From the NCBI GenBank assembly GCA_002842035.1, contig PHBP01000001.1:419198-483197 (forward strand): a stretch of 64,000 bases of DNA, in the 5' to 3' direction. A model generated the notes under the pieces. That model made no database searches, had not been told where the DNA came from, and saw nothing but the letters and a program-made list of their open reading frames with translations. Positions 24,154-37,078 of this stretch are shown one piece after another. How positions within the stretch are numbered: the first letter of the stretch is position 1; each line of letters starts with the position of its first letter. The translations under genes were made by a program, and so were the position numbers. This stretch comes from Candidatus Cloacimonetes bacterium HGW-Cloacimonetes-2. Its GTDB lineage: Bacteria > Cloacimonadota > Cloacimonadia > Cloacimonadales > Cloacimonadaceae.

Positions 24154-27100
24154 ATGTTCAGCGTAGCCGATACAGCATTGAAATACTCCGTACTGGTCAA
24201 TATGCTCACTCTTGCCATCCTGATCTTTGGATTGGTGGCAATGGTCTCAATGCCGAGGGAAGAATTCCCGGCGGTGGAATTTGGATTGGTCTTTGTGGTA
24301 GTGCCCTATCCGGGAGTTTCACCAGCAGAGATCGAGCAGTTGATAGTAAATCCGATCGAAAACGAGCTCGGTGATCTGGAAAACCTGGACTATATAGCCT
24401 CCAGCGCCGAGGAAGGCAGAGCCTTTATCAGGCTGGTCTTTGATAGCGGTATTGAGCCGGTCAAGGCCTATGACAACACAATCCGAGAGCTTAGTAAGGT
24501 CACTAATCTGCCACCGGATGCCCTCGATCCGATCGTAATGCGTGCCAATATGCGCGAAGTCAATCCCATTGCACAGGTCGTCCTGGGTGGAGATTTCTCG
24601 CCCCGGGCTCTGGGTGATATCGCAGACGAGGTAGAAGAAGGTCTCCTGAGTGTAGAAAACATCTCCAAAGTTGATGTGGTGGGCAAGAGAGAACGCCAGA
24701 TCTGGATTGATGCGGATCAGGCAAAGCTTGATGCTTATGGCATTACCCTGAGTGATCTGTCCTCTATGCTGCAGGGACGCAATCTCAATATCCCGGGCGG
24801 AACCACCAAGTTTGGCAAGGTGGAATTCCTGGTGAGGACTCTGGGGCAGTTTGGATCAACCGAGCAGCTTGCTTCGATGATTGTCCAATCTGATCCCAGC
24901 GGACGTGCCATCAGAATCTCGGATCTTGCAGCTGTAAGAGACACTCTGGAACGTACTGAGACCATCGCCAAGCTCAATGGATCACAAAGCATCAGCATCT
25001 TCCTCTACAAGAAAGGTGATGGCAATATCATCAAGGTAATGAAGGACGTTAGGACTTATCTGGATGACTACAAGAAAGGTGTTCCGGGCTTGGAGGTCAG
25101 CGTTCGCAATGACGGCTCCATAGATGTCCGCAATGGCATCAATGCCCTTGGCTCAAACGCCCTGATGGGGATTATCCTGGTATTCCTGGCGCTCTTTATC
25201 TTCCTGGGCTGGAAGAACGCACTTCTGGCGTCTATCGGAATACCTCTGTCGCTACTAATCACTTTTGTAATTGCTCCGATATTTGGGATCACTCTAAACA
25301 ATCTCACCATCTTTGGTATGATCATAGTGGTGGGAATGGTGGTGGACAATTCGATCGTGGTGCTGGAGAATATCCATCGCTTCCGCGAGCTCGGATATTG
25401 TCATCGTGATGCTATCGTAATGGGTGTAAATCAGGTGATATCTCCGGTCTTCTCATCCACTCTTACGACAGTAGCAGCCTTTTTGCCTCTCTTATTGATG
25501 AAAGGCATTATGGGGCAGTTTCTCTCGGTGTTTCCGATCGTGGTTAGTATCGCTCTGCTGGGATCATGGTTCCAGAGTATGGTGATCCTGCCCAATAACG
25601 TCTATCAGTTTGGCAGGGGCATCAAGGCAGGAGATGATCGTACCACCCGCCTGATCAAGCCGCTGATCAAATACTATCAGAAGATCATCCACAAGGTTTT
25701 AAAACACCGTGCCATCGTTATCTGGAGTGCGATAGGACTCTTGGTAATCTCCTTTGGAATTCTGGCATCAGGTGCGATCCAATTTGAATTCTTCCCTTCC
25801 TCCCCCTCGCAATCCATTGCCTTGCAGCTTCAGACCCCAGTGGGGACTTCGTTACAAGAGACCGAACGGGTAGTAACTCAAGTGGAAGACTACGTAATGA
25901 ATATGAAGGAAAAGGAAGATATCGAGTTTGTAGTCAGCAACATCGGTGCCATCGGAAGCGAAGGTATGCGCGACGTTAAGTCAAGCAATGCCCAAGTAAA
26001 CATCGATCTGGTTGATATCAAGGAAATGAAGTTTACTCAGGAGCAGATCCGTAATTCCATCCGCCAGTATCTGGATAAACTGCCTGGTCTTTACACCTAC
26101 AAGTTCGGGCGCAGTCAGCAGGGACCTCCTGTGGGCAACGACGTCGAACTCCGTATCAAGGGTGAAGATCTGGCAAGGCTTGCCTATCTTGCTGACGTAG
26201 TGAAATCCAATCTCCGCAAGATCCCCGGTGTGGTGGATATTGAAGACGACTTTGATGCCGGTAAGAAGGAAGTCAAGATCGTGCCTTATCACGAGAAGCT
26301 CTCCATTGCGGGCTTGACGGTTGCACAGATCGCATCCACCATCCGTACTGCAAGCAGCGGCTCAACGGTTACTCAGTACCGCGGTGAAGGCGTCGAAGAG
26401 CACCCAATAGTAGTCAAGCTGGATGATATATATACCCAGGATCTGGAAATCCTCAAGAATCTGAAGATACGTACCCGCACCGGGGAACTGATCGCCATCC
26501 GCGACCTGGCAGATTTCGAGATCACCAGTGGTTATTCCAGGCTCTCTCACCGCGACAAGAAACGCGTGGTAACTGTCACTGCAGCCGTTACAGATTATGA
26601 CAACGGCGGTAGAAAAGCCAAGAGAACTACTCAGGAAGTGACGACAATGCTGCTGGGTAACAGGCTGGGTAATGAGACCGGGATGCTTGGCAATTTCGAG
26701 CAGCGCTACCCGGGATATTCCATTGAGTTTGGCGGAGTCCAGGAAGAGCAACGCAAGTCCTACAGCTCGCTTGGTGCTGCCTTCCTGCTGGCAGTATTGA
26801 TCATCTTCACTATCCTGGCATCTCAGTTTAAGAGCTATGTCCAGCCTCTGATCGTGATGATGACCATCCCCTTTGCCTTCATCGGCGTGATCTTTGGTCT
26901 CCTGATGACAGGACTCTCTTTCTCCCTGAACACAATGATCTCAGTAGTGGCTCTGGCAGGTGTGGTTGTCAATAACGCCATCATTATGATCGATTTCATC
27001 AATCAGGAGCGCGAGAAAGGCGCAGATCGCTGGCATGCCATTGTAAATAGTGGTTCTGCCCGTCTGAGACCCATTATCCTCACTACCGCCACAACCGTAG

Positions 27101-27330
27101 CCGGGATGCTGCCTCTCGTATTCTCCGGTGATCCTTCCGCGCAGGTCTGGCGTCCGATGGCGGTGAGTTTTACCTTTGGCTTGCTCTTTGCGACCCTCTT
27201 AACCCTCTTTGTGATCCCTGTGATCTATTCAATGGTGGATAGCTTCTTTGGTAAGTTCAAGATGACTCGTTTCACCGAACATCTGAAGTTCAACGACGCT
27301 ATGGAAGAATGCAAACCCGCAGAGGATTAA
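24154..27330 (+). CDS. RND efflux permease (AcrB/Mdt family)
   Basis: A 1058-residue inner-membrane proton antiporter. It contains the ACR_tran hallmarks: an N-terminal helix, PREEFPAVEFGLVFVVVPYPG, two large periplasmic loops and two six-helix blocks (FGMIIVVGMVVDNSIVVLENIHR near 390 and VVALAGVVVNNAIIMIDFIN near 935). The GxxxDN pair in helix 4 is present. Subfamily and drug substrates cannot be fixed. The stop overlaps by three bases the stop of the convergent ECF T-component gene, so the two transcription units collide without an intergenic terminator. Confidence 0.95.
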   Translation: MFSVADTALKYSVLVNMLTLAILIFGLVAMVSMPREEFPAVEFGLVFVVVPYPGVSPAEIEQLIVNPIENELGDLENLDYIASSAEEGRAFIRLVFDSGIEPVKAYDNTIRELSKVTNLPPDALDPIVMRANMREVNPIAQVVLGGDFSPRALGDIADEVEEGLLSVENISKVDVVGKRERQIWIDADQAKLDAYGITLSDLSSMLQGRNLNIPGGTTKFGKVEFLVRTLGQFGSTEQLASMIVQSDPSGRAIRISDLAAVRDTLERTETIAKLNGSQSISIFLYKKGDGNIIKVMKDVRTYLDDYKKGVPGLEVSVRNDGSIDVRNGINALGSNALMGIILVFLALFIFLGWKNALLASIGIPLSLLITFVIAPIFGITLNNLTIFGMIIVVGMVVDNSIVVLENIHRFRELGYCHRDAIVMGVNQVISPVFSSTLTTVAAFLPLLLMKGIMGQFLSVFPIVVSIALLGSWFQSMVILPNNVYQFGRGIKAGDDRTTRLIKPLIKYYQKIIHKVLKHRAIVIWSAIGLLVISFGILASGAIQFEFFPSSPSQSIALQLQTPVGTSLQETERVVTQVEDYVMNMKEKEDIEFVVSNIGAIGSEGMRDVKSSNAQVNIDLVDIKEMKFTQEQIRNSIRQYLDKLPGLYTYKFGRSQQGPPVGNDVELRIKGEDLARLAYLADVVKSNLRKIPGVVDIEDDFDAGKKEVKIVPYHEKLSIAGLTVAQIASTIRTASSGSTVTQYRGEGVEEHPIVVKLDDIYTQDLEILKNLKIRTRTGELIAIRDLADFEITSGYSRLSHRDKKRVVTVTAAVTDYDNGGRKAKRTTQEVTTMLLGNRLGNETGMLGNFEQRYPGYSIEFGGVQEEQRKSYSSLGAAFLLAVLIIFTILASQFKSYVQPLIVMMTIPFAFIGVIFGLLMTGLSFSLNTMISVVALAGVVVNNAIIMIDFINQEREKGADRWHAIVNSGSARLRPIILTTATTVAGMLPLVFSGDPSAQVWRPMAVSFTFGLLFATLLTLFVIPVIYSMVDSFFGKFKMTRFTEHLKFNDAMEECKPAED

Positions 27331-28034
27331 ATGAGCAATAACAAAGCACTTAGAGCTACCAAAGCTATAAGTACCAGATAATCGACAAGCTGTAAGCTCC
27401 GGGGGTGGAGGAAGCTCTTCTTCCCCTGCCTCCGGAAGCCTCTCAGCTCCAATTGTATAGCCTGTAGATCACTCTTTGCTAATAGCCCCCCCAGGACAGT
27501 CAGGCTCACAATCCGATAAACCTTTAGTTTGTCCTTGAAAGCTAAGCTCTTGATCTTTATCCCCCTAAGGGATAGATTCTGCATAGATAACCGAAACTGA
27601 GCCCTTAGTTGCGGCAGCAGATGTACCATATAAGCTATCATAAAGCTGATCTCTGCCGGAAGCCACTTCAAGGCCAGCCTGAAATCCTGATAAGCCAGCT
27701 CCTTGAGGATGGATGCCGATACCAACAGAATCACCAACCTCAAGCTCACCTGAGCCGCCAAAGCCAAGCCCCCACTATAAATCGCCACAAAGCCCGCTCG
27801 CCACAGCTCGTCCCCATCCCTGCGCAGCAGCACCTGCACCACGAATACCGAGGCTATCACAGGGATCAGGATACGCAGAGCCTTCAGATAGACCCAGAGC
27901 TTTTTTCCATTTGCCCAAAATGAGATTAGTAGCGCAATGCCTAATAATCCCAGCAAATACTCTATCCGGTTTTCCAAGACAGCGATACTGGTGATCCAGA
28001 GCGTGATCAGGAGCCAGGTTCCAGGATGGATCAC
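27327..28034 (-). CDS. ECF transporter T component (EcfT/CbiQ family)
   Basis: A 235-residue membrane protein of the CbiQ family. It shows several hydrophobic helices and the cytoplasmic coupling-helix region with AYMVHLLPQLRAQFRLSMQN and SLRGIK...LSLTVLGGLLAKSDL...LELRGF, which docks to the ATPases. The frame is open to 28055, but GTG 28034 is favoured: its GTGA overlaps the stop of the upstream ATPase gene, GGAG lies 5 bases before it, and the other genes of the operon show the same coupling. It ends inside the RND stop codon. Confidence 0.85.
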   Translation of the reverse strand: MIHPGTWLLITLWITSIAVLENRIEYLLGLLGIALLISFWANGKKLWVYLKALRILIPVIASVFVVQVLLRRDGDELWRAGFVAIYSGGLALAAQVSLRLVILLVSASILKELAYQDFRLALKWLPAEISFMIAYMVHLLPQLRAQFRLSMQNLSLRGIKIKSLAFKDKLKVYRIVSLTVLGGLLAKSDLQAIQLELRGFRRQGKKSFLHPRSLQLVDYLVLIALVALSALLLLI

Positions 28035-28612
28035 AGCTTCTCCAGGTGTAGGCATTCCGCCCCCAGTTGCTCTTTCAGAAATGCTTCGTGACTTACGATC
28101 AGGGCTCCGCTGCCTGCATCTTGCTTTTTTATTACCAGCCTCAAGAGCCTCTCTCGATCCTGATCGTCAAGCCCGGCAAAAGGCTCGTCAAGCAGCCAAA
28201 ACTTATCCATCAGATAGGGCAGACAGAGCTGTGCGGCTGTCCTCAGCATCCCGCTGGATAGCCTTGTATAGGGAGTATCAAGGAGCTCCGGATAACGCAA
28301 TTCCCTCTTGACTTTATCAATATCCAGCTCAGGCAATACCAGCTTCCATATTTCCAAATCTTCCGCCGGAACGATACCTAAGAGGCTCTGTGCCGGATCT
28401 TGAGCCAGATAATGCATAGCGATCCCGCCTGTCTCTATCTTTGCCGTTCCTGCCGGTAAAACACCTGCCATAAGCTTTAGCAGAGTGGACTTTCCACAGC
28501 CATTTTCACCGCTCAGGATATAGACTTTACCGGGATCCAGCTCCCAATTGATTCCCTTTAGGACGTCCCTTCCGGCTTGATAGCCCCACCGTGATATCTC
28601 AAGACTGATCAA
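28031..28612 (-). CDS. ECF transporter ATPase subunit 2
   Basis: A 193-residue ABC ATPase, shorter than usual. The Walker A is GENGCGKST (about 33-41), the signature region is RLSSGMLRTAAQL, the Walker B is DKFWLLDEPFAGLD, and the H-switch is IVSHE. It starts with TTG overlapping the preceding ATPase stop (TTGA). It pairs with the upstream ATPase as the A1/A2 heterodimer of an energy-coupling-factor importer. Confidence 0.9.
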   Translation of the reverse strand: MISLEISRWGYQAGRDVLKGINWELDPGKVYILSGENGCGKSTLLKLMAGVLPAGTAKIETGGIAMHYLAQDPAQSLLGIVPAEDLEIWKLVLPELDIDKVKRELRYPELLDTPYTRLSSGMLRTAAQLCLPYLMDKFWLLDEPFAGLDDQDRERLLRLVIKKQDAGSGALIVSHEAFLKEQLGAECLHLEKL

Positions 28613-29256
28613 GCTTGATCCCCCAGCCGGATGAGGCGTACCGGCAGATCCAGCAAGGCATCACCATGTTCTGCCATCAGGATGATCCTGCCTTCATTGC
28701 TTTTATCCAAGAGCCAGGTCTTGAGGAGCTTTAGTGACTGTCCGGACATTCCCTTGGAAGGCTCATCCAACAAAATCAGTGGTGCATTAATCACGTCGCA
28801 GATTGCCCAAGCCAATCTCTTCTGCTGTCCAAAAGAGAGCTTCGCCGCGTCGTCATAGCGCAGGGTCTCCAGCTCGAATCTCTTTAATGCCAAGCTGATA
28901 CGCTCTTCGATAGCGGTGGGATCGATGCCCAGATTCTCGGGTGCAAAAGCCAGTTCATACTCCAGATTGGGAAAGAAAAAGCCCGATTCCGCCATTTGAT
29001 AGGAGAGGAACTGCAGTCTGTCGCACAGTGCAAAGGACCCGATATCCACATTATCCAAACTGATTCTGCCCTCCAGCCCCGCCTTGATATGCTCGCCAAT
29101 AATCCCGGCTATCGCATTGAGCAGTGTGGTCTTGCCACTACCGCTGGGAGCTCTTAGGACTGCGATCTCTCCCTTTGCCAGTTCCAGCGAGAGCTCTTTT
29201 AATACCGGCTCTTCAGCTCCCGGATAATGAACCGAAAGGCGATCCAGCTTTAGCAA
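28609..29256 (-). CDS. ECF transporter ATPase subunit 1
   Basis: A 215-residue ABC ATPase. The Walker A is APSGSGKTT (about 36-44), the Q-loop lies near FLSYQMAES, the signature is LSFGQQKRLAWA, the Walker B is PLILLDEPSKGMSG, and the H-loop is MAEHGD. The start is TTG at 29256, 3 bases after the secreted-protein stop. It works with the neighbouring ATPase, T component and S component. Confidence 0.9.
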   Translation of the reverse strand: MLKLDRLSVHYPGAEEPVLKELSLELAKGEIAVLRAPSGSGKTTLLNAIAGIIGEHIKAGLEGRISLDNVDIGSFALCDRLQFLSYQMAESGFFFPNLEYELAFAPENLGIDPTAIEERISLALKRFELETLRYDDAAKLSFGQQKRLAWAICDVINAPLILLDEPSKGMSGQSLKLLKTWLLDKSNEGRIILMAEHGDALLDLPVRLIRLGDQA

Positions 29257-29259
29257 GGC

Positions 29260-30192
29260 TCAATTGCCCGGATAGAGCTTGAAATAGCGATCCTCCAAAC
29301 TGAGGCTGCGCTTGGCGATAAAATCTGCAAAGCTCAGCTTTTGGCTGCCTCTCGTGCGATAGAGCTTTACCTTTGCCCGTGTTCCCAGGTTCCAGGATAG
29401 GAGCCCGTTCAGATCGATCAACTTGCGTAGCTCTGCACCCTGGAAAGTCGCTTGTTTTCCGGCTTGGATATAGATGATATCCTTTACCCACATACCACCC
29501 GGAATCCGTGGACTCTTCAGGTTAATACCCTCATCTCCGGCTTCCAACACCGCTCCACGGAGGTCATCAGGATATTTCAAACCGAGCTTAAACCCATCTC
29601 TGCTGATCAGGATCACATCGCTACGGCGTCCGGCACCGAGTTTTCGTAAGATATCTTCAAAGCGATAAGCCCAGATTCCCACAAAGGGAGCGGGATCCTG
29701 CACCAGGTCGATCCGACTGAGCAGCAACTCCATACTATGGATCTTCTTGGGACGTGGAGCCGGACGGAAATCTTCCAATACCACCTTGCTGATATTGCGT
29801 ATCCAGTGATTCTGCGAGAGATTGGGGAAGATCACCCGGTAATTTTCAGACTCGAAGATCTCATCATTCTGCCCGGTCATAATCCAGCAGGATGTAGTAT
29901 CAAATGCCACTTTCTCAAAGCTTACCTGATAGCGATCGTCCGATTCAAAGCGAATCACCGTCCAATCTGTCAAGCCATTATCTCTCAGCCAGTTGTCAAA
30001 TCGTATCCCTCTCCAGCTATCCCTGCGGATTCCTTCCTCGCGGACACGCTCTGTGCTGATCTCTTCCTGTGGCAACGTCCCAAAGAAGCTATTTTCAAAC
30101 TCCCGGATTCTACCATCTTTCTCGATGATCCGGAGTCCGTTCAGGCTCAGCAAGAGCCCGGTCAAAATCAGTATCAGCAGATATCTTTTCAT
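29260..30192 (-). CDS. Secreted protein of the ECF operon, possible SUOX-like fold
   Basis: A 310-residue exported protein with signal peptide MKRYLLILILTGLLLSLNG. Two internal segments (WRGIRFDNWLRDNGLTDWTV..ESDDRYQVSF near 65-100, and YRFEDILRKLGAGRRSDVILISRDGFKLGL near 175-210) resemble the tandem half-sites of oxidoreductase molybdopterin-binding (SUOX-like) or DUF4430-like domains. No molybdenum-ligand Cys is evident, so a binding role is likelier than catalysis. It sits between the ECF S component and the ATPases, suggesting a periplasmic part of the same uptake system. ATG 30192 has TGAGGA upstream and lies 8 bases after the S-component stop. Confidence 0.6.
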   Translation of the reverse strand: MKRYLLILILTGLLLSLNGLRIIEKDGRIREFENSFFGTLPQEEISTERVREEGIRRDSWRGIRFDNWLRDNGLTDWTVIRFESDDRYQVSFEKVAFDTTSCWIMTGQNDEIFESENYRVIFPNLSQNHWIRNISKVVLEDFRPAPRPKKIHSMELLLSRIDLVQDPAPFVGIWAYRFEDILRKLGAGRRSDVILISRDGFKLGLKYPDDLRGAVLEAGDEGINLKSPRIPGGMWVKDIIYIQAGKQATFQGAELRKLIDLNGLLSWNLGTRAKVKLYRTRGSQKLSFADFIAKRSLSLEDRYFKLYPGN

Positions 30193-30200
30193 TGTATTCC

Positions 30201-30737
30201 TCACGCGCAAAGCTTGTATTTTCTTAGTTCATAATGGATCAGATAGCTAAGGTATCCTCCCGCAATGCCGGATACCAAGGCTGTCGATACCGAAACACCT
30301 ATCATCAGCGGAGGATGCTTGAAGATCACGATTGCCATGATCAGTACTCCGGTGATATTGGCAAATGAGGTCAGCACCAAATGCTGAAGGAGACCTCCGC
30401 GGTAGCGCATAATGATCGCCAGCGCATCGGCTACCAGCCCGGGGACCGTATAGGTCAGTAGCGATAGCGCCCCGTGATTGCCAAAGCTGCCTTGAATCAG
30501 CACTACCAAAGCCTGCAAGACTCCAAACAGAGTTCCGCTACCGAGTTTTTTGGTGCTGAGAACTGCCAAACTGAGCCACATCATATAGAAGCCACCGGCA
30601 AAGGAGCCTCCCGGCAACATCAGAGGAGCAGAGATGCTCTTTGAGATGGGAGATACGATAGGCTTGATTGCCAGCCCTACAGCGGCAAAGACGGCTATCA
30701 GGATCAGGTCTCTGGTGCGAAAACTCTTCAGGATCAA
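30201..30737 (-). CDS. ECF transporter substrate-binding S component
   Basis: A 178-residue membrane protein with about six helices and the S-component start RTRDLILIAVFAAVGLAIKP. It carries the conserved Gly-rich helix GGSFAGGFYMMWLSLA and a loop LIQGSFGNHGALSLLTYTVPG. The substrate is not identifiable; similar proteins are linked to vitamins, queuosine precursors or metals. It overlaps the dCMP deaminase stop by 4 bases (ATGA). Confidence 0.8.
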   Translation of the reverse strand: MILKSFRTRDLILIAVFAAVGLAIKPIVSPISKSISAPLMLPGGSFAGGFYMMWLSLAVLSTKKLGSGTLFGVLQALVVLIQGSFGNHGALSLLTYTVPGLVADALAIIMRYRGGLLQHLVLTSFANITGVLIMAIVIFKHPPLMIGVSVSTALVSGIAGGYLSYLIHYELRKYKLCA

Positions 30738-31216
30738 ATCAAGCGCTCCATTACCTGATGCTCGGGATCATAGTGAATCAGCTCGATCCCGGCTTCCTCA
30801 AAGAGCTGCTCCGCCAAAGCATCGGGATATGTAGCTGCGCAGTAAACAGTTCTGATCTCCGCATTGATGATCAGGCGCGCGCAGATACTGCAGGGCTGAT
30901 GAGTGCAGTAGAGCACTCCATTCTTTGTACTGGAGCCATTGATAGCTGCCTGGATGATTGCATTTTGTTCCGCGTGAACCCCACGGCAAAGCTCGTGCTG
31001 TTGCCCCGAGGGCACGTTCTTTTGCATCCTGAGGCAACCAACGTCCGCGCAATGCGGTACACCCTTGGGGCTCCCATTATAACCGGTAGAAATAATCTGG
31101 TTGTCGCGCACCAATACTGCACCCACGGAGCGCCTGAGGCAAGTGCTGCGTTTGGCTGCCAGATGCGCCATTTCCATAAAGTATTGCTGCCATGTAGGCC
31201 TGTTTTCCATCGTCAT
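30734..31216 (-). CDS. dCMP deaminase (ComEB-like)
   Basis: A 160-residue zinc deaminase that converts dCMP to dUMP for thymidylate synthesis. The zinc site is HAE (81-83) plus PCSIC (Cys109 and Cys112), and the insert HCADVGCLR..GQQHELCRGVHAEQNAI is typical of deoxycytidylate deaminases. ATG 31216 or 31210 begins the family-like N-terminus (M.NRPTWQQYFMEMA); codons further upstream are not conserved-looking. It leads the ECF operon, overlapping the S component by 4 nt. The functional link with uptake is unclear. Confidence 0.92.
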   Translation of the reverse strand: MTMENRPTWQQYFMEMAHLAAKRSTCLRRSVGAVLVRDNQIISTGYNGSPKGVPHCADVGCLRMQKNVPSGQQHELCRGVHAEQNAIIQAAINGSSTKNGVLYCTHQPCSICARLIINAEIRTVYCAATYPDALAEQLFEEAGIELIHYDPEHQVMERLI

Positions 31217-31306
31217 CCCCAATCTTCTTGATGATCGCATCCCAGCATCTCCCCCTTTTTTTGTCAAGAACCATACAGAGTGATTCCACTCGCAGAGATT
31301 GTCGCA

Positions 31307-31360
31307 TCAGATCTGGTGGCTTAGGTTTTTCCAGCCCTGTACCGGCTCCAATAGACCTGC
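31307..31360 (-). pseudogene. Detached 3'-end fragment of the 38857-39294 gene family
   Basis: Read on the minus strand, 18 codons (AGLLEPVQGWKNLSHQI plus stop) match the last 18 codons of the gene ending at 38857 (AGLLEPVQGWQNLIREI), 43 of 54 bases. Similarity begins sharply at base 31360, where the frame is preceded by two stop codons. Several differences are third-position changes. The two copies bound the defence island. Confidence 0.8.
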
Positions 31361-31423
31361 TTATTATGAACACTGCAATTCATACCTCAGTATCCCAATG
31401 CAATTTGTCCCAATCAGTTACCA

Positions 31424-31514
31424 TATTCACTCTATACGCTGTTTGAAAGATCAATACCAAAATCTTGCTTACACTATTATATGGGGGACAGATTTGGGAT
31501 TTTCGGACAGATCT
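31424..31514 (+). repeat. GGGGGACAGAT dispersed repeat, copy 1
   Basis: It contains ATTCACTCTATACGCTGTTT, ATACCAAAATCTT, ATGGGGGACAGATTTGGGA and CGGACAGATC. It is closest to the inverted copy at 41426-41513 and related to copies at 39450 and 57280. Confidence 0.88.
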
Positions 31515-31580
31515 TGAAAGAAAGTTTATTAAAACGAGATTATGACGGATGCTGTGCAGGGATATATATAGGTTTATTGT

Positions 31581-31667
31581 GTGGGTCCGTCATCCTGACG
31601 GACAGTGAAAGTGGGTCCGTCATCCTGACGGACAGATGTACACTGAGCGACAGGATGTCGCTCCCAC
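31581..31667. repeat. REP cluster: two forward and one inverted hairpin
   Basis: GTGG plus stem GTCCGTC, loop ATCCT and GACGGAC occur at 31581-31603 and 31611-31633. On the minus strand GTGG plus GAGCGAC, ATCCT and GTCGCTC lies at 31645-31667. The GTRG head plus hairpin is the layout of REP sequences mobilised by RAYT transposases, and the same units surround the RAYT gene 5.5 kb away. Confidence 0.88.
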
Positions 31668-31682
31668 AATCATAAGCTCCCC

Positions 31683-31708
31683 AAAAAAAAGACCTTCCGA
31701 AGAAGGTC
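31683..31708 (-). terminator. Terminator of the defence operon
   Basis: On the minus strand GACCTTC-TTCG-GAAGGTC is followed by eight T. It lies 28 bases beyond the stop of the 69-residue gene. Confidence 0.95.
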
Positions 31709-31736
31709 CCTCCAGGGTTATTGTTCCGAATTATGG

Positions 31737-31946
31737 CTAGACTTTACGCCAGCCGTATTTGTTTTCTAAGTACCTGTAGAAGTTGGCTCTGTTATGAGGG
31801 CTATACGAATAGTCTTGCTTGAACGCCCTGCATTTGGATCTGATATCAAGCAAGTTTGATTGTGTCTGGGCTTTACCGTATATCTGAAGGATATACATCA
31901 TCTCGTGGTCTTGTTCACAAGCTACGAGGTCGTGGTCTGATGGCAT
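31737..31946 (-). CDS. Small protein of unknown function, last gene of the defence operon
   Basis: A 69-residue, polar, probably helical protein beginning MPSDHDLVACEQDHEMMYIL and ending NFYRYLENKYGWRKV. No family was recognised. ATG 31946 is chosen because GGAGGT lies 3 bases upstream; the longer frame (to 32054, TTG) runs through a homopolymer giving KKKK and has no ribosome site. It follows the zinc-ribbon/NDT-like gene by about 125 bases, on the same strand, and precedes a strong terminator. It may be a regulator, immunity partner or unrelated. Confidence 0.6.
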   Translation of the reverse strand: MPSDHDLVACEQDHEMMYILQIYGKAQTQSNLLDIRSKCRAFKQDYSYSPHNRANFYRYLENKYGWRKV

Positions 31947-32071
31947 ATTACCTCCTATACCCTGGAATTCTTTTTTTTTCTTGTTTGGTTCTGTTTGAGA
32001 TTCTGTTTCTATTCCAGTTATAGTAGGTTCTGCTACAGCTCCAATGCTAGCCAATAAATTGATTGATTATA

Positions 32072-32998
32072 CTATGTAATAGTAGCCTTTATCCTATTGA
32101 TTAGTTTTTCTTTCAAGTCTGAGGGATCTGACCATTTTATATGATTATACTGTCTTGTATCGAAATGTAAATTATCAAAATCATCTTCTCTGCAGCACCA
32201 TACTACAGGTATCCCAAGCCCTAATGCATGGCCAGCCTCAAAGTAAACCCCACCTCGCTGACCAGTGAAATCCGCAATAACAAAGGCAGACTGCTTAATC
32301 TCTTTTACGATTCTATCGCAGATTTTACCGTTGTGGTCTTTTTTGTCAATTCGGAACGCTTGGTATCCACATTCTGTAACTGCTGGTGCTATAGCCTCAA
32401 TATAGGCATTATCAAGATCAGGATCTCCAAACTTCATAGCTACAAATACCTGCTTTGATTCTGGATGGCGTTTTCGTAGCTGTGAGATCCTTTCCCACCC
32501 CTTCACGTATAAAAAAAAGGTGAAGCTGTCATTTCCCGTTGTATAAGGTCCAATGTATTCAAGATCTGCAGCCATTAATAGAACAGCTTGCAACTCACTA
32601 TCATCATGTATATACAGCAGTGGAATATCATGTTTGGGTATGGAAATTCCAACATTGAATCTAGATGCCTTACGACTACAATACTGCATAAGAATGTCCA
32701 GAATTTCCAGAGGGTCATCAGGAACGCGGACACTGCTCTTGATCTCATCGTAGTTCTCTATAGTTAACTCTATCTCATCCGTGGATGCTTCAGATAAATT
32801 CCTAAGTACAATGCTCATATCAAGATCAGGATTCTTTAAGTCGTAGTAATCAACAAGCCTCGTATTCAACTGCCAGGATGTTACTTTATACCGACCGCAG
32901 TATTGACAATCAACTTGATACTTCGCATTGCCATCATAGTAATGGATTTCCATGTTCGTCCGATGGCATATCGGGCATTTGTCAAATTTGTATTTCAT
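32072..32998 (-). CDS. Zinc-ribbon protein with nucleoside deoxyribosyltransferase-like domain
   Basis: A 308-residue protein. The N-terminus has a four-Cys zinc ribbon (Cys8, Cys11, Cys31, Cys34). A middle region (about 45-175) is unassigned. The C-terminal domain (183-300) is of the nucleoside 2-deoxyribosyltransferase/TIR-like Rossmann type: KQVFVAMKFG, AIAPAVTECGY, FRIDKKDHNGKICDRIVKEI, FVIADFTGQRGGVYFEAGHALGLGIPVVW. Glu254 in VYFEAGHA sits where the catalytic Glu of this fold is found. Such domains occur in nucleotide-targeting conflict and abortive-infection systems (established for the fold). That it is a defence effector here is inference from its place behind a restriction operon. 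Confidence 0.72.
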   Translation of the reverse strand: MKYKFDKCPICHRTNMEIHYYDGNAKYQVDCQYCGRYKVTSWQLNTRLVDYYDLKNPDLDMSIVLRNLSEASTDEIELTIENYDEIKSSVRVPDDPLEILDILMQYCSRKASRFNVGISIPKHDIPLLYIHDDSELQAVLLMAADLEYIGPYTTGNDSFTFFLYVKGWERISQLRKRHPESKQVFVAMKFGDPDLDNAYIEAIAPAVTECGYQAFRIDKKDHNGKICDRIVKEIKQSAFVIADFTGQRGGVYFEAGHALGLGIPVVWCCREDDFDNLHFDTRQYNHIKWSDPSDLKEKLINRIKATIT

Positions 32999-33068
32999 AA
33001 GGTGCTCCCATGTTTAAAGACATTAGCTGAAAACAATTGAGGTTACTAGAGAAGATAAGTGCAATCCC

Positions 33069-35579
33069 CTATCCTTCCACATTCACAAACTCCCTCGCTA
33101 CATCCTTATAACTGAGGACAGTGTCAAAGAGTCCAATATCTTCGCCTTCGTGTTTATTGATGCCGGTATAGCTGAGGCTGGCATCTTCGTAGCGTTTGAA
33201 TTTGTAGATAGCGTCATTCATCAGAGGGCTGTTGAAGACGTTCAGGCTTACCAAGAGTTCAAAATCTTTCTGGCTCAAGCCGGTTACTTTTTTGAACAGA
33301 GCCGGTTCCAATTGAGAGATAACGTCTTTAAGAGAGCGTTCCCGGTAGTCTGTGAGATACATAAAAATCGGAATCCTCGTAGCAAACTTGATCAGCTTCT
33401 CCTGTATCATCTTGCGTTTGCTACGATACTCTTTCTCTGCCTCTGTTAGTTCTTTCTTTTGCTCCGGGCTCAGTTTGCTGTCATTTGCTTCTTTCTTTGC
33501 CTTTTTCACTGCCTCGGATTTATTGATGATGGTCTCGATATCCTGATTAAGACTGCGGAATCCTTCGATATTCTGCAAGGCTTTCATAGCAGCTTTGTTA
33601 TCTATCAGGCGTTGCAAAGTAGAATTATCCACATTCACAAGGAGAGCGCTTTCCCAACGCCTTGCCAAAAGGGTGGCAGTGGTACCGCTGGCTGCCATAT
33701 CAAGGATACCCGCTGCATCGATCTGCCGCATCGAACTGCCATCAAAAGCCAAAACCGGCAGGAAGCTGATGAATTCTTCCACCAGCTTTTCCTGATTCTT
33801 TTCGATAGAACCCAGTCTGCAACTGTATTCAGCAATCTGCCTTAGCGCTCTATCGGGAGCAAAATCAAAGACATAACATTCCTCTTTGATCACTAGTTCT
33901 TCATTGGGACTTAATCCATCGGGATTTATGATAGTCCAGGGAGATTGCACTCTAAAGGCTGCCTGAAAATAAGTCTCCGGACTTGTTAGATTGCGCAACA
34001 TCAGGATTCCAGACCAGGGGCGTATGGTTACCCCAGTGGTGAGTTTCCCACAGGATAAAGTAATGGTCTTGGTTTTTAGAGGATCAGCCATAGCTTTTTT
34101 TACAGGACCCAGGGCGGCAACGCCAATCCCGGCAGCAGCTCCGGCTGCCAAGATTACCTGATAATCGTGATAAAAACTATTCTGCCGCTTTGCCAAAAGA
34201 GCTTTCATTGCGTGACATGCTGACACGCTCGGCAAGAACCAAAAGCTATGAGAGAGAAGCCCCAAAAGCCTAACATCCGAATAGGGCAGCGGTGGTTTCT
34301 GAGCTCCCAGCTTCAGATCGTCCAGATTGGAAGCCCGATGTTCACCCCGAATCAAATTGAGCCATTTCTGTACTTCATTTTCATATTTGAATTTGGCTTT
34401 GTCCCCCAAACCCTCAGCAGAGAAAAAAACATTGAGGTCAAACTCGTTGAATTCACCTTTCATAGCAATGTCCCTGATCTCATCGGGGAGTTGATAGGTG
34501 AGCATCACCATTCTGGGCAATGCTGCATAAGGGTTCTTATCTCCCTGCCAATCCTGCTTTGCTTTTTGTTCATCGGAATAAGTCCAGTTGTAGATCTGCT
34601 CTTCGATGAATTCTCCTGTGGCTATTGCCCGAAAAGGTGTTCCCGAGAGATATAGATAGGCACTAGTGGTAACAGGCATAATGCCTTCATCAAAAATCGA
34701 GAGACCATCTTCGATTTGCTTATCCAGATCATCTTCTGCCTCAAAGAGCTCTTTTGCCCTCTCGCGCCAAGCTCCGAAGTGGTACTCATCCAAAACCACA
34801 CAATCCCAATTTGTGGTGTGCACCCATTCATTCTTGGTCTTGATGCCCCCGGTAGAAGGATTCTTGCCCAGATAATCCTGAAATGAGCCAAAGCAGACTA
34901 TGGGCTTGGATTGATCTGCCTTATCAAAGCTAAGGCCTCCCGGCTTGATAAACTGCCACTCGGCAAAATCGACGTGCATCCTTAGATCATCTTCCCAGGC
35001 ATCCTGCACAGCAGGCTTGAAGGTAAGCACCAAAAGTTTGGTCCAGCCCATTTCCTTTGCCAGCTTGTAGGTGGCAAATGTCTTGCCAAAGCGCATCTTG
35101 GCATTCCAAAGAAAGTGAGGAGCCTTCCCTTTGTTTGATTTATCACAGTACCAAGCACGAAAGTAAGATGCTGTCCGCTGGACTGCCTCCTGCTGTTCCG
35201 GCCTCAGATCAAAATCCAGACAGCGACTATCAAATGCCAATTGACCTTCGCGAACTGCCCGGATAGCGGAGAGCACTTCGGTTACAGTGCACTCAAACCA
35301 CTCTCCAACAGGATTGTGCTTGCCATTTATGCGGAGCATAGAATGAACATCGTGATCGGTAAAAGCTGTGCCATCAGCACGCATGGCAGATTCCTCCAGC
35401 ACTATCCTGTAGGGAGCTTTGCCGGGAGTTTTGATGGGATAAATCTGCTCCAGCCTCTCTTTGGCAGTCCGGGTGGTGTAACCAACCTTTAGCAAGCCCT
35501 TGAACTGGGGGTTGCTATCCTCATAAGCATAGATGAGAGGCTTTAGCCCGGGCCGGGGTGGAAAGAAATCCTTAGCCAT
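33069..35579 (-). CDS. GIY-YIG nuclease fused to SF2 helicase (restriction subunit)
   Basis: An 836-residue protein. The N-terminal domain (about 13-95) is GIY-YIG/T5orf172-like: LIYAYED, GLLKVGYTTRTAKERLEQIY and GEWFECT, giving the usual Tyr, Arg and Glu. The helicase core follows: motif I MRFGKT (about 165), motif II DEYH (about 263), motif III SGTPF (about 311), a TGVTIRPW motif near 515 and motif VI QAAFRVQSPW near 540. A long charged C-terminal region includes a Lys/Glu coiled coil (about 690-735). It starts 5 bases after the Eco57I-like methyltransferase stop. Together they resemble an ATP-dependent restriction system with cleavage by the GIY-YIG domain. Recognition site unknown. Confidence 0.85.
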   Translation of the reverse strand: MAKDFFPPRPGLKPLIYAYEDSNPQFKGLLKVGYTTRTAKERLEQIYPIKTPGKAPYRIVLEESAMRADGTAFTDHDVHSMLRINGKHNPVGEWFECTVTEVLSAIRAVREGQLAFDSRCLDFDLRPEQQEAVQRTASYFRAWYCDKSNKGKAPHFLWNAKMRFGKTFATYKLAKEMGWTKLLVLTFKPAVQDAWEDDLRMHVDFAEWQFIKPGGLSFDKADQSKPIVCFGSFQDYLGKNPSTGGIKTKNEWVHTTNWDCVVLDEYHFGAWRERAKELFEAEDDLDKQIEDGLSIFDEGIMPVTTSAYLYLSGTPFRAIATGEFIEEQIYNWTYSDEQKAKQDWQGDKNPYAALPRMVMLTYQLPDEIRDIAMKGEFNEFDLNVFFSAEGLGDKAKFKYENEVQKWLNLIRGEHRASNLDDLKLGAQKPPLPYSDVRLLGLLSHSFWFLPSVSACHAMKALLAKRQNSFYHDYQVILAAGAAAGIGVAALGPVKKAMADPLKTKTITLSCGKLTTGVTIRPWSGILMLRNLTSPETYFQAAFRVQSPWTIINPDGLSPNEELVIKEECYVFDFAPDRALRQIAEYSCRLGSIEKNQEKLVEEFISFLPVLAFDGSSMRQIDAAGILDMAASGTTATLLARRWESALLVNVDNSTLQRLIDNKAAMKALQNIEGFRSLNQDIETIINKSEAVKKAKKEANDSKLSPEQKKELTEAEKEYRSKRKMIQEKLIKFATRIPIFMYLTDYRERSLKDVISQLEPALFKKVTGLSQKDFELLVSLNVFNSPLMNDAIYKFKRYEDASLSYTGINKHEGEDIGLFDTVLSYKDVAREFVNVEG

Positions 35580-35584
35580 TGTGT

Positions 35585-37078
35585 TTAAGCCATATCCTTA
35601 ATCTTGGATTCAATAAAGGTGGATTCAGTTTCAGATATTTTGTACTTCTCCTGAAGCATGCTGTCTGTCCACTTTGTGTTCATGTCCAGCACGGGAACAA
35701 AAGAATAAGCATCTTTTGTAATATGGTGTGAATACATGAATTGCGACACTAGAAATCTAAAGAACTTGGTCTTCATATAGGCAACGAGGTTCTCGGATTC
35801 TATCAAGGAATCGTATGCACCAATAACTAAATACGTTTCGGTACAAATTGTTCCGGGAGGCAGAATGTCTATCTTGGAAAATACTCTCCTTTTTCCATCC
35901 TTTCCGGGATTGCCAGCATGATCATAACCTACATATGCTGTCACGACCTTCCATTTATCAATGAGATCTGAACCCACTGTTATCAGTTCTCGTGGGTACG
36001 GTCCTTCTCCCTCGTTCCATCTCAGGATGATATCTCCATGGTCTTTGGGGCGCACGATAGTGCTAAGCCCAAATGGTTTCCTTGATGATACTTGATCACT
36101 CATTTTTGTTTCCTTCTGATCCAGTACTTTTCGGATTATTGAGACTGATTGGCCGTGTCTGATCAGAGTATGAAACTCACTTAGCTCGCGCATTGAATCA
36201 ACTTGTTCACCACTGTGGATATTTATAACATTGCATAATCCAGGATTATCTCTATCCCACAAGAAATAGCAAACACCCCCTGCCAGATCTATTCCAGGAA
36301 AGACTTCGGAGGCATTCTCGTAATCGACCAGAACTCTTATTCTTTTATCATTAAGCATTATGCTTCTGAATCCATCTAAGCCCTTCCCACCACCAAACCA
36401 TCTGGCCGGGATAATCATAACCAAGTATCTTGGATTCAGCTTTATTGCCTGTAGGACAAACTCATTATATATAGGTGTTGCACTTCTGCCAAATCCTCCA
36501 TCACTAAGCTGATAGGGCGGATTACCAATAATTACGTCAAATTTCATTTTAAAGAGCTCCTCTGGTTTTTCTGTGTGGATGAATCTGTAAGCATGGCTTT
36601 CCAATTCATCACCTCTGGAGTAATTGCCTTCACTTGCCCCGCAATAGATACATCTGCCATTTTTCCAAGTGTGTTCCAGGCTTTCATAGGATATATTGCC
36701 TTCTGCTTTTCTGAAGGCAGAGCTTATTGAGTATTGACCATTTGCTTTTTTGGAGCAGTAGAGAGACCTGCGGGAGATTTGGGCTGTAAGATCTGTGATA
36801 GCAAGCCCAAATAGCTGGTTTTTCATTATGTGGTCAATACGTTGCTGGCGATCCGGGATTTGGGATTCCAAACCTTTATCCAGCCTTTTGGCAATCTCCC
36901 GGAGGAATATACCGGATTTGCAGCCGGGATCCAGAAAACGGGATTTCTTGTTTGTCCAGAGCTTTTCTGGTAGCAAGTCCAGCATTTGGTTTGCCAGCTC
37001 TGGAGGAGTAAAGACCTCATCACTGCTTAGGTTTGCAATGCAGGAGAGGACATCAGGATTGTAGCTGGTTCTTAGCAT
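35585..37078 (-). CDS. Eco57I-like N6-adenine DNA methyltransferase
   Basis: A 497-residue gamma-class methyltransferase. VFTPPELANQMLDLLP leads to motif I in the variant form FLDPGCKSGIF (48-57, normally DPACGSG). Motif IV NPPY is at 186-189 after FDVIIG. A Cys pair CIYC (143-146) could bind zinc. The C-terminal half (about 300-497) is probably target recognition. It lies between the RAYT insertion and the helicase gene and most likely protects host DNA. The motif I substitutions may reduce SAM binding, and the neighbouring small methyltransferase with a canonical motif I may complement it (inference). Confidence 0.85.
   Translation of the reverse strand: MLRTSYNPDVLSCIANLSSDEVFTPPELANQMLDLLPEKLWTNKKSRFLDPGCKSGIFLREIAKRLDKGLESQIPDRQQRIDHIMKNQLFGLAITDLTAQISRRSLYCSKKANGQYSISSAFRKAEGNISYESLEHTWKNGRCIYCGASEGNYSRGDELESHAYRFIHTEKPEELFKMKFDVIIGNPPYQLSDGGFGRSATPIYNEFVLQAIKLNPRYLVMIIPARWFGGGKGLDGFRSIMLNDKRIRVLVDYENASEVFPGIDLAGGVCYFLWDRDNPGLCNVINIHSGEQVDSMRELSEFHTLIRHGQSVSIIRKVLDQKETKMSDQVSSRKPFGLSTIVRPKDHGDIILRWNEGEGPYPRELITVGSDLIDKWKVVTAYVGYDHAGNPGKDGKRRVFSKIDILPPGTICTETYLVIGAYDSLIESENLVAYMKTKFFRFLVSQFMYSHHITKDAYSFVPVLDMNTKWTDSMLQEKYKISETESTFIESKIKDMA

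Follow-up and report, generated by a model that had tools for sequence, protein, structure and literature searches.

A group I ECF operon of Cloacimonadota as a proposed importer of the finished molybdenum or tungsten cofactor

We describe a six-gene operon for an energy-coupling factor (ECF) importer in Candidatus Cloacimonetes bacterium HGW-Cloacimonetes-2, lying within a 64,000-nucleotide stretch of contig PHBP01000001.1 (assembly GCA_002842035.1, positions 419,198 to 483,197 of the forward strand; hereafter the window). Our reading, to which we give a probability of roughly three in four, is that its products form those parts of an importer that sit in the inner membrane and the periplasm, and that this importer takes up the finished pyranopterin cofactor of molybdenum or tungsten enzymes (the molybdenum cofactor, Moco, or its tungsten counterpart, Tuco, or a nucleotide form). 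Linkage of the operon in relatives to the Moco riboswitch (RF01055), loss of cofactor synthesis with retention of the enzymes that use the cofactor, and a pterin-binding fold in the exported protein of the operon (EXP) together lead to this reading. The analysis itself shows which gene families are present, how EXP and the S component are predicted to fold, the riboswitch linkage in relatives, and the gene-content pattern; the substrate and its transport we infer from these. The broader picture, that of a dedicated bacterial importer of the finished cofactor with SUOX-fold pterin binders at two stages (a surface lipoprotein and a periplasmic carrier) and with most of the phylum dependent on the Moco of its neighbors, is one we consider reasonably probable.

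Operon layout and transporter class

The original prediction, drawn from the letters of the window alone, was of an ECF importer accompanied by its own exported protein for capture, encoded by six genes on one strand and joined by ATGA, TTGA, and GTGA junctions. All six genes were found on the minus strand, running from 31213 to 27327, with the deaminase, S component, ATPases, and T component identified through Pfam:

30734..31213, minus strand: dCMP deaminase (ComEB-like); PF00383, 1.7e-27; TTGA overlap with S
30201..30737, minus strand: S component, YkoE-type, TTG start; PF09819, 5.3e-13; AlphaFold model
29260..30192, minus strand: EXP, exported protein, 310 residues from its ATG, with two probable SUOX/PruR-like repeats; AlphaFold, Foldseek, PF00174 in the family
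28609..29256, minus strand: ECF ATPase A1; PF00005, 5.7e-18; best NCBIfam match cbiO, 2.2e-25, under its cut-off
28031..28612, minus strand: ECF ATPase A2; PF00005, 4.1e-15; TTGA overlap with A1
27327..28055, minus strand: T component, CbiQ family; PF02361, 4.7e-8; alternative GTG start at 28034 (GTGA junction)

Two of the three proposed junction types were seen. TTGA joins the deaminase to S and A1 to A2, and GTGA joins A2 to T; a further GTGA is possible at the S/EXP border, where the alternative EXP start is an ATG 12 nt downstream. No ATGA stop/start overlap occurs at the operon's borders, and the gap between EXP and A1 is 3 nt.

The AlphaFold model of S (predicted local distance difference test score, pLDDT, 87.0) fits the thiamine S component YkoE (5edl) with a Z score of 19.2 over 172 aligned residues at 2.9 Å, as compared to 14.0 for the next-best S component and 12.7 for the transition-metal S component 4m5b. 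Membrane proteins of similar helix layout also match at Z 7-10 and are not read as relatives, and the S profile found no match among PDB sequences at E ≤ 10. Residues Y51 and W54 of S share the spacing of Tyr46 and Trp49 of YkoE, a likeness of sequence spacing only. As a YkoE-type S, a T component, and two ATPases stand in one operon, the system is a group I ECF transporter of the YkoE type.

Distribution in the phylum

Relatives were followed through 124 Cloacimonadota genomes, many of which are draft metagenome-assembled genomes. EXP is present in 70 of these, S in 82, and T in 81. Scoring the system as any of S, T, or EXP at E ≤ 0.001 gives 92 genomes, seven with T alone and 85 with S or EXP. 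The 21 named relatives found via EXP are all Cloacimonadota/Cloacimonetes records, the nearest at 57% identity; they include Ca. Syntrophosphaera, which we take to belong to Cloacimonadota. A contig scan with the single EXP protein as query returned 34 stretches, none confirmed as a relative. EXP lies within 400 bp behind S in 64 of the 82 S-bearing genomes, an adjacency that is more than chance. Combined with the pterin-binding fold of EXP, this adjacency bears out the core idea of an ECF importer with its own capture protein.

EXP has the fold of pterin-binding proteins

In agreement with the original description, EXP is a mid-operon protein of 310 residues from its ATG, with a hydrophobic N-terminus, judged by eye, as export signal. 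The window protein alone has no match in Pfam, NCBIfam, or PDB sequences at E ≤ 1. PF00174, the SUOX Moco-binding domain, is matched by 10 of 15 EXP family members and not by the window's own protein. A second set of 10 carries this domain in nine, five of these over the Pfam cut-off; the sets have four members in common, and L060 and L051 duplicate first-set contigs. The family profile matched sulfite dehydrogenases among PDB sequences at E 0.017, a hint that was later supported by the fold search.

Structure prediction, proposed from the start as a check, gave an EXP model (from 20 sequences) with a PruR/SUOX fold and a pLDDT of 86.3. All 20 of its Foldseek matches at E ≤ 0.001 are PruR pterin-binding or SUOX-family proteins, with PruR 7kom at the top (5.1e-6). 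In VIA-align comparisons PruR 7kom reaches Z 12.8 over residues 18-140, SUOX/PruR chains as a group span Z 7.4-12.8, and the remaining rows stay at Z ≤ 4.1.

The original prediction saw two SUOX/DUF4430-like segments in EXP. The first is the clear PruR-like domain, and the second emerges from comparison of the two halves by hhalign, at E 6.8e-5 and 63% probability in a 15-row alignment and at E 0.0033 and 10% in a closer 20-row alignment; the best of 30 column shuffles gave E 0.0021. Judged from these profiles, the second half is probably a degenerate repeat of the first. A DUF4430/transcobalamin-like reading was rejected, no such Pfam match being found in the window protein or in family members.

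No cysteine is invariant in the EXP family, either in the 15-row alignment (alignment A1) or in the 20-row alignment (alignment A3). PruR is described, in the accessible part of a review, as a periplasmic pterin binder with a SUOX fold and a tryptophan in place of the metal-ligating cysteine (PMC13259868). Given the SUOX/PruR fold, the lack of an invariant cysteine, and the PruR precedent, EXP is best read as a binding protein rather than an enzyme.

Linkage to the Moco riboswitch

RF01055 was found 105 times across the 124 genomes, with one hit (G100:C25) below the cut-off. In 38 of the 82 S-bearing genomes it precedes S on the same strand, at a distance of 29-1525 bp. A census of downstream genes, based on gene maps, the positions of aldehyde:ferredoxin oxidoreductase (AOR)-family enzymes, and a re-check of doubtful cases, found 38 hits in front of S, 38 in front of a lipoprotein and/or BtuB-like TonB receptor, and 16 in front of 1-pyrroline-5-carboxylate (P5C) dehydrogenase. 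The rest precede AOR (eight), tungstate ABC transporters (two), and [FeFe] hydrogenase (two), or lie at a contig edge (one). Altogether 76 of 105 riboswitches precede either the S operon or the lipoprotein/BtuB-like receptor pair.

The two tungstate transporters, WtpA in G057 and a TupA-like protein (below the model cut-off) in G091, both occur in genomes with the synthesis gene MoaC. These genomes have no S, T, or EXP and form a natural contrast to the importer genomes. In four fully aligned RF01055 hits little or nothing is left of the P3 stem, and this loss fits the many AORs. Moco RNA forms lacking P3 are tied to the tungsten cofactor in the text available of Regulski et al. (PMC2408646).

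Other genes behind RF01055 were also recorded. The 16 P5C dehydrogenase cases include one in the window genome (L074; G000:C2:154362-154483, TIGR01236), and the enzyme is perhaps a Moco-independent aldehyde dehydrogenase that is on when the cofactor is short. At L090, L108, and L083, AOR and a MoaD-like gene come after the riboswitch, and L090 and L108 have a MoeB/ThiF-like gene further on; this may be a cassette for maturation of the tungsten cofactor. In L133 and L138 (G102 and G103) it precedes a group A6 [FeFe] hydrogenase, an enzyme without a need for Moco.

Synthesis genes are lost where the enzymes are kept

Moco synthesis is nearly absent from the phylum, with MoaC in three genomes, MoeA in two, and MoaE in none of the 124; the same searches found each family in 11 of 14 control genomes. 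Enzymes of the xanthine-dehydrogenase (XDH) type (PF20256) are present in 101 of 124 genomes and AOR-type enzymes (PF02730) in 82, and 110 genomes count as users of Moco/W enzymes once FdhA-like enzymes are included. Users were defined by PF20256 or PF02730 at E ≤ 0.001 or by FdhA-like PF00384 above 100 bits, leaving out weaker PF00384 matches (mostly NuoG-like frames of about 1100 residues) and the frames of about 1180 residues in families f13 and f12.

Each of the 92 genomes that carry S, T, or EXP is a user, and none of these three genes is found in the 14 non-user genomes or in the three with MoaC (Fisher p 4e-10, without phylogenetic correction). Within genera g6, g7, and g8, 19 genomes have both enzymes and the system, 11 have neither, and one (G044) has XDH without the system, a match in 30 of 31. 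At 99.55% completeness, the window genome encodes two enzymes of the XDH type and two of the AOR family, and the searches for MoaC, MoaE, and MoeA gave no match in it; beside one XDH lies a weak match to a MocA-like transferase (45.7 bits against a cut-off of 186.45). Where the original prediction spoke of an unknown nutrient, riboswitch and gene content now allow the substrate to be named, with good support, as a Mo/W pyranopterin cofactor.

As a separate observation, the near-complete MoaC-bearing genomes G091 and G057 (loci L152 and L153) have MoaC and MoeA and no MoaE match. L152 also has a MoaA-like gene, and in both loci genes of about 146-149 residues follow MoaC.

Outer-membrane and periplasmic partners

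In the window genome a lipoprotein/BtuB-like receptor pair lies on another contig (L075, G000:C3) behind its own RF01055, and in other genomes too this pair stands alone behind a riboswitch of its own. In nine mapped operons (families f4, f7, f10, and f11, and genus g10 of f1) a BtuB-like TonB receptor is encoded between A2 and T. The receptors of L041, L035, and the window genome score best against a B12-receptor model. The window genome's receptor reaches 144.9 bits against the TonB-B12 equivalog, short of the cut-off of 599.7.

The lipoprotein has no Pfam or PDB match that names it. Its two halves match each other at E 8.5e-9, indicating two repeats, and its second half matches the first domain of EXP at E 6.5e-5 (other half pairings, 6.9e-4, 0.0035, and 0.0084). 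Comparison with EXP including signal peptides gives E 6.7e-7, a value inflated by the aligned signal peptides. These profile matches make the lipoprotein a probable second SUOX-like protein, and pterin-binding domains would then stand at two stages. The original suggestion was that EXP could be an outer capture protein. The outermost step more likely belongs to the BtuB-like receptor and lipoprotein of L075, and EXP would therefore be a periplasmic carrier.

An exported PF01663 phosphodiesterase is encoded within the operon in L043 and L045 and, by similarity, in L086, L088, L092, L049, and L046 (weakly in L046). Among 37 mapped T loci, MobB lies directly behind T in L088 and L091 and soon after T in L048.

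Two further observations concern relatives of the operon. Six g2 genomes (G001, G002, G003, G004, G007, and G008; loci including L038, L039, and L149) have a second EXP paralogue, divergent to a lipoprotein/TonB receptor pair and beside the same riboswitch. In other families, small proteins of 138-206 residues with hydrophobic N-termini lie between EXP (or the phosphodiesterase) and A1 (L041:7060-7473, L043:5989-6429, L041:7473-8090); those of L041 and L043 gave no convincing family match.

Proposed mechanism and points against it

In our model, the BtuB-like TonB receptor and its partner lipoprotein (here on G000:C3) would bring the cofactor across the outer membrane, and in some lineages the exported phosphodiesterase would strip the nucleotide. 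EXP, with its putative double SUOX/PruR-like domain and no catalytic cysteine, would bind the pterin and pass it to the YkoE-like S component, with uptake powered by T and the two ATPases. The imported cofactor would then supply AOR and XDH-type enzymes, and the Moco riboswitches would lower uptake in a replete cell.

Several observations weigh against import of the finished cofactor. The window operon itself has no RF01055, with none in the whole window at gathering score and none in 26500-36000 at E ≤ 5, and S lacks an upstream RF01055 in 44 of 82 genomes. The fold of S is closest to a thiamine S component, and the authors of the PruR review think, in its accessible part, that a single-domain PruR cannot hold Moco (PMC13259868). 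Over the full mature length, lipoprotein and EXP match weakly (E 0.004; best of 30 shuffles 0.025), and for this reason the lipoprotein is called only a probable second SUOX-like protein. The genome counts carry no phylogenetic correction, many of the genomes are drafts, and synthesis loss was judged by MoaC, MoeA, and MoaE, MoaA not being among the families searched. Fifteen of the 110 user genomes have neither MoaC nor S, T, or EXP, six of them 92-99% complete (G044, G050, G074, G090, G115, and G116); these may use another importer or other genes.

Furthermore, in 18 of the 82 S-bearing genomes no EXP follows S, and all 13 such genomes of family f13 are among them. The mapped f13 loci L047, L048, and L091 read S-A1-A2-T without EXP, and L050 ends within A1. 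A small protein follows S in L091, G123 of this family has a weak EXP match elsewhere in its genome, and RF01055 lies upstream of S in four of the 13 (G117, G118, G120, and G121). Homologous loci consistently lacking the exported gene, named originally as the finding that would count against a dedicated partner, do occur in one family, f13, with EXP behind S in 0 of 13 (64 of 82 overall). From these loci we take EXP to be a frequent, not an obligate, partner.

Alternative explanations

The alternative that survives best, though we think it unlikely, is import of an earlier or metal-free pterin (cyclic pyranopterin monophosphate, cPMP, or molybdopterin) that the cell completes itself. It would draw on the same riboswitch, gene-content, and fold evidence, and the MoaD-like and MoeB/ThiF-like genes after AOR in L090 and L108 and the MobB genes behind T in a few loci speak for it. 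However, with MoaE in 0 of 124 genomes and MoeA in 0 of the 92 with S, T, or EXP, cPMP sulfuration and metal insertion by known enzymes are missing. In addition, ModA/WtpA-type proteins (PF13531) exceed 80 bits in only four of 124 genomes (G051, G057, G058, and G066), a phylum-wide TupA search not having been made.

Import of molybdate or tungstate by an ECF system under ModABC- or TupABC-like regulation is very improbable. Free metal would be useless without MoaC, MoaE, and MoeA, and one would not expect small oxyanions to enter by a TonB receptor. CbiM/NikM-type ECF systems do carry metals, but S fits YkoE far better (Z 19.2) than the metal-type 4m5b (Z 12.7), and the fold of EXP is pterin-binding. 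The Moco motif is known to precede molybdate transporters (PMC2408646, available text); the MoaC-bearing G057 and G091 have WtpA or a TupA-like protein behind the riboswitch instead of this operon.

We give as little credence to a thiamine, hydroxymethylpyrimidine, or cobalamin importer lying near Moco riboswitches by chance. Chance is not a plausible account of linkage in 38 of 82 genomes, and among the loci of 20 relatives 14 have RF01055 and none has a thiamine pyrophosphate or cobalamin riboswitch at gathering score. In favor of this alternative, S resembles YkoE, a thiamine binder according to the accessible text of PMC5037267. The best scores of the three receptors against the B12-receptor model also favor a vitamin, yet that of the window genome falls far below the B12 cut-off. 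Least credible is a pterin-sensing or redox-signaling device like PruR-DcpA with a borrowed ECF module, for although PruR is the closest fold to EXP, the neighbors of EXP in the mapped loci are ECF genes, many with a TonB receptor (neighbors were not scanned for DcpA or kinase domains).

Neighboring genes

The deaminase matches ComEB TIGR02571 at 4.6e-38 and 130.5 bits, below the cut-off of 219.45. Of 37 mapped S loci, 17 have it beside S, all of them in family f1 (three contigs are counted twice among the 37: L031/L051, L032/L060, and L034/L068). With this confined distribution it was dropped as a component of the system and is probably a lineage-specific, incidental neighbor. Beyond the operon, the protein at 32072-32998 has sub-threshold matches to nucleoside 2-deoxyribosyltransferase and TIR and adjoins a large open reading frame at 33069-35579, called a helicase by eye only; together they are possibly a defense gene pair. 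No tRNAs were found in the window.

Significance and comparison with known systems

Moco use without synthesis has been noted before. Peng et al. (2018) reported several hundred prokaryotes with Moco enzymes and an incomplete Moco pathway; in the text available they suggest unidentified synthesis genes or metal-free enzymes and do not propose cofactor uptake (PMC6147048). With a named importer and its testable genes, these orphan molybdoproteins gain a third possible explanation. In Caenorhabditis elegans, dietary Moco is used by a transport route called unknown in the accessible part of PMC9793310. If our reading is true, it would provide a bacterial counterpart to this dietary use, explain how a bacterial group uses Moco/W enzymes after loss of the synthesis genes, and imply that the microbes of anaerobic communities exchange a cofactor supposed to be too labile for this. 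No bacterial Moco importer appeared among the matches listed in the open-access literature, by titles and abstract openings (subscription papers and preprints lay outside). ECF cofactor importers are already known; the Moco/Tuco substrate, if true, has no precedent that we found.

The system shares parts with several known ones. With YkoEDC, a group I ECF thiamine transporter, it has in common a PF09819 S component of YkoE fold, a T component, and two ATPase units in one operon. It differs in its Moco-riboswitch linkage in relatives, its exported pterin-fold protein, and its TonB receptor; YkoD, moreover, is one fused double ATPase where here there are two genes. The BtuB/BtuG/BtuFCD layout for B12 uptake, with a TonB receptor, a lipoprotein, a periplasmic carrier, and an ATP-driven importer, resembles the proposed system, which differs in its proposed substrate class, in an ECF module for BtuCD, and in a SUOX-fold carrier.

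ModABC, WtpABC, and TupABC are controlled by the Moco RNA motif, which in the present system is linked to S in 38 of 82 genomes and absent from the window operon; this operon has no PF13531-type binding protein. Regulski et al. report the RNA upstream of genes for cofactor synthesis, molybdate transport, and Moco-dependent enzymes, and the term "ecf" does not occur in the available text (PMC2408646).

PruR resembles EXP in its SUOX fold, export, lack of a conserved cysteine, and membrane partner. It has one domain of about 170 residues, compared with 310 residues and a probable second repeat in EXP, and its partner is DcpA, where the genes beside EXP in the window are those of an ECF importer. 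The SUOX-family molybdenum enzymes (sulfite oxidase, SorA, MsrP/YedY) share the fold, with PF00174 found in 10 of 15 EXP relatives. EXP differs from them in having no invariant cysteine and in its two apparent degenerate repeats, and on these grounds it is probably not an enzyme.

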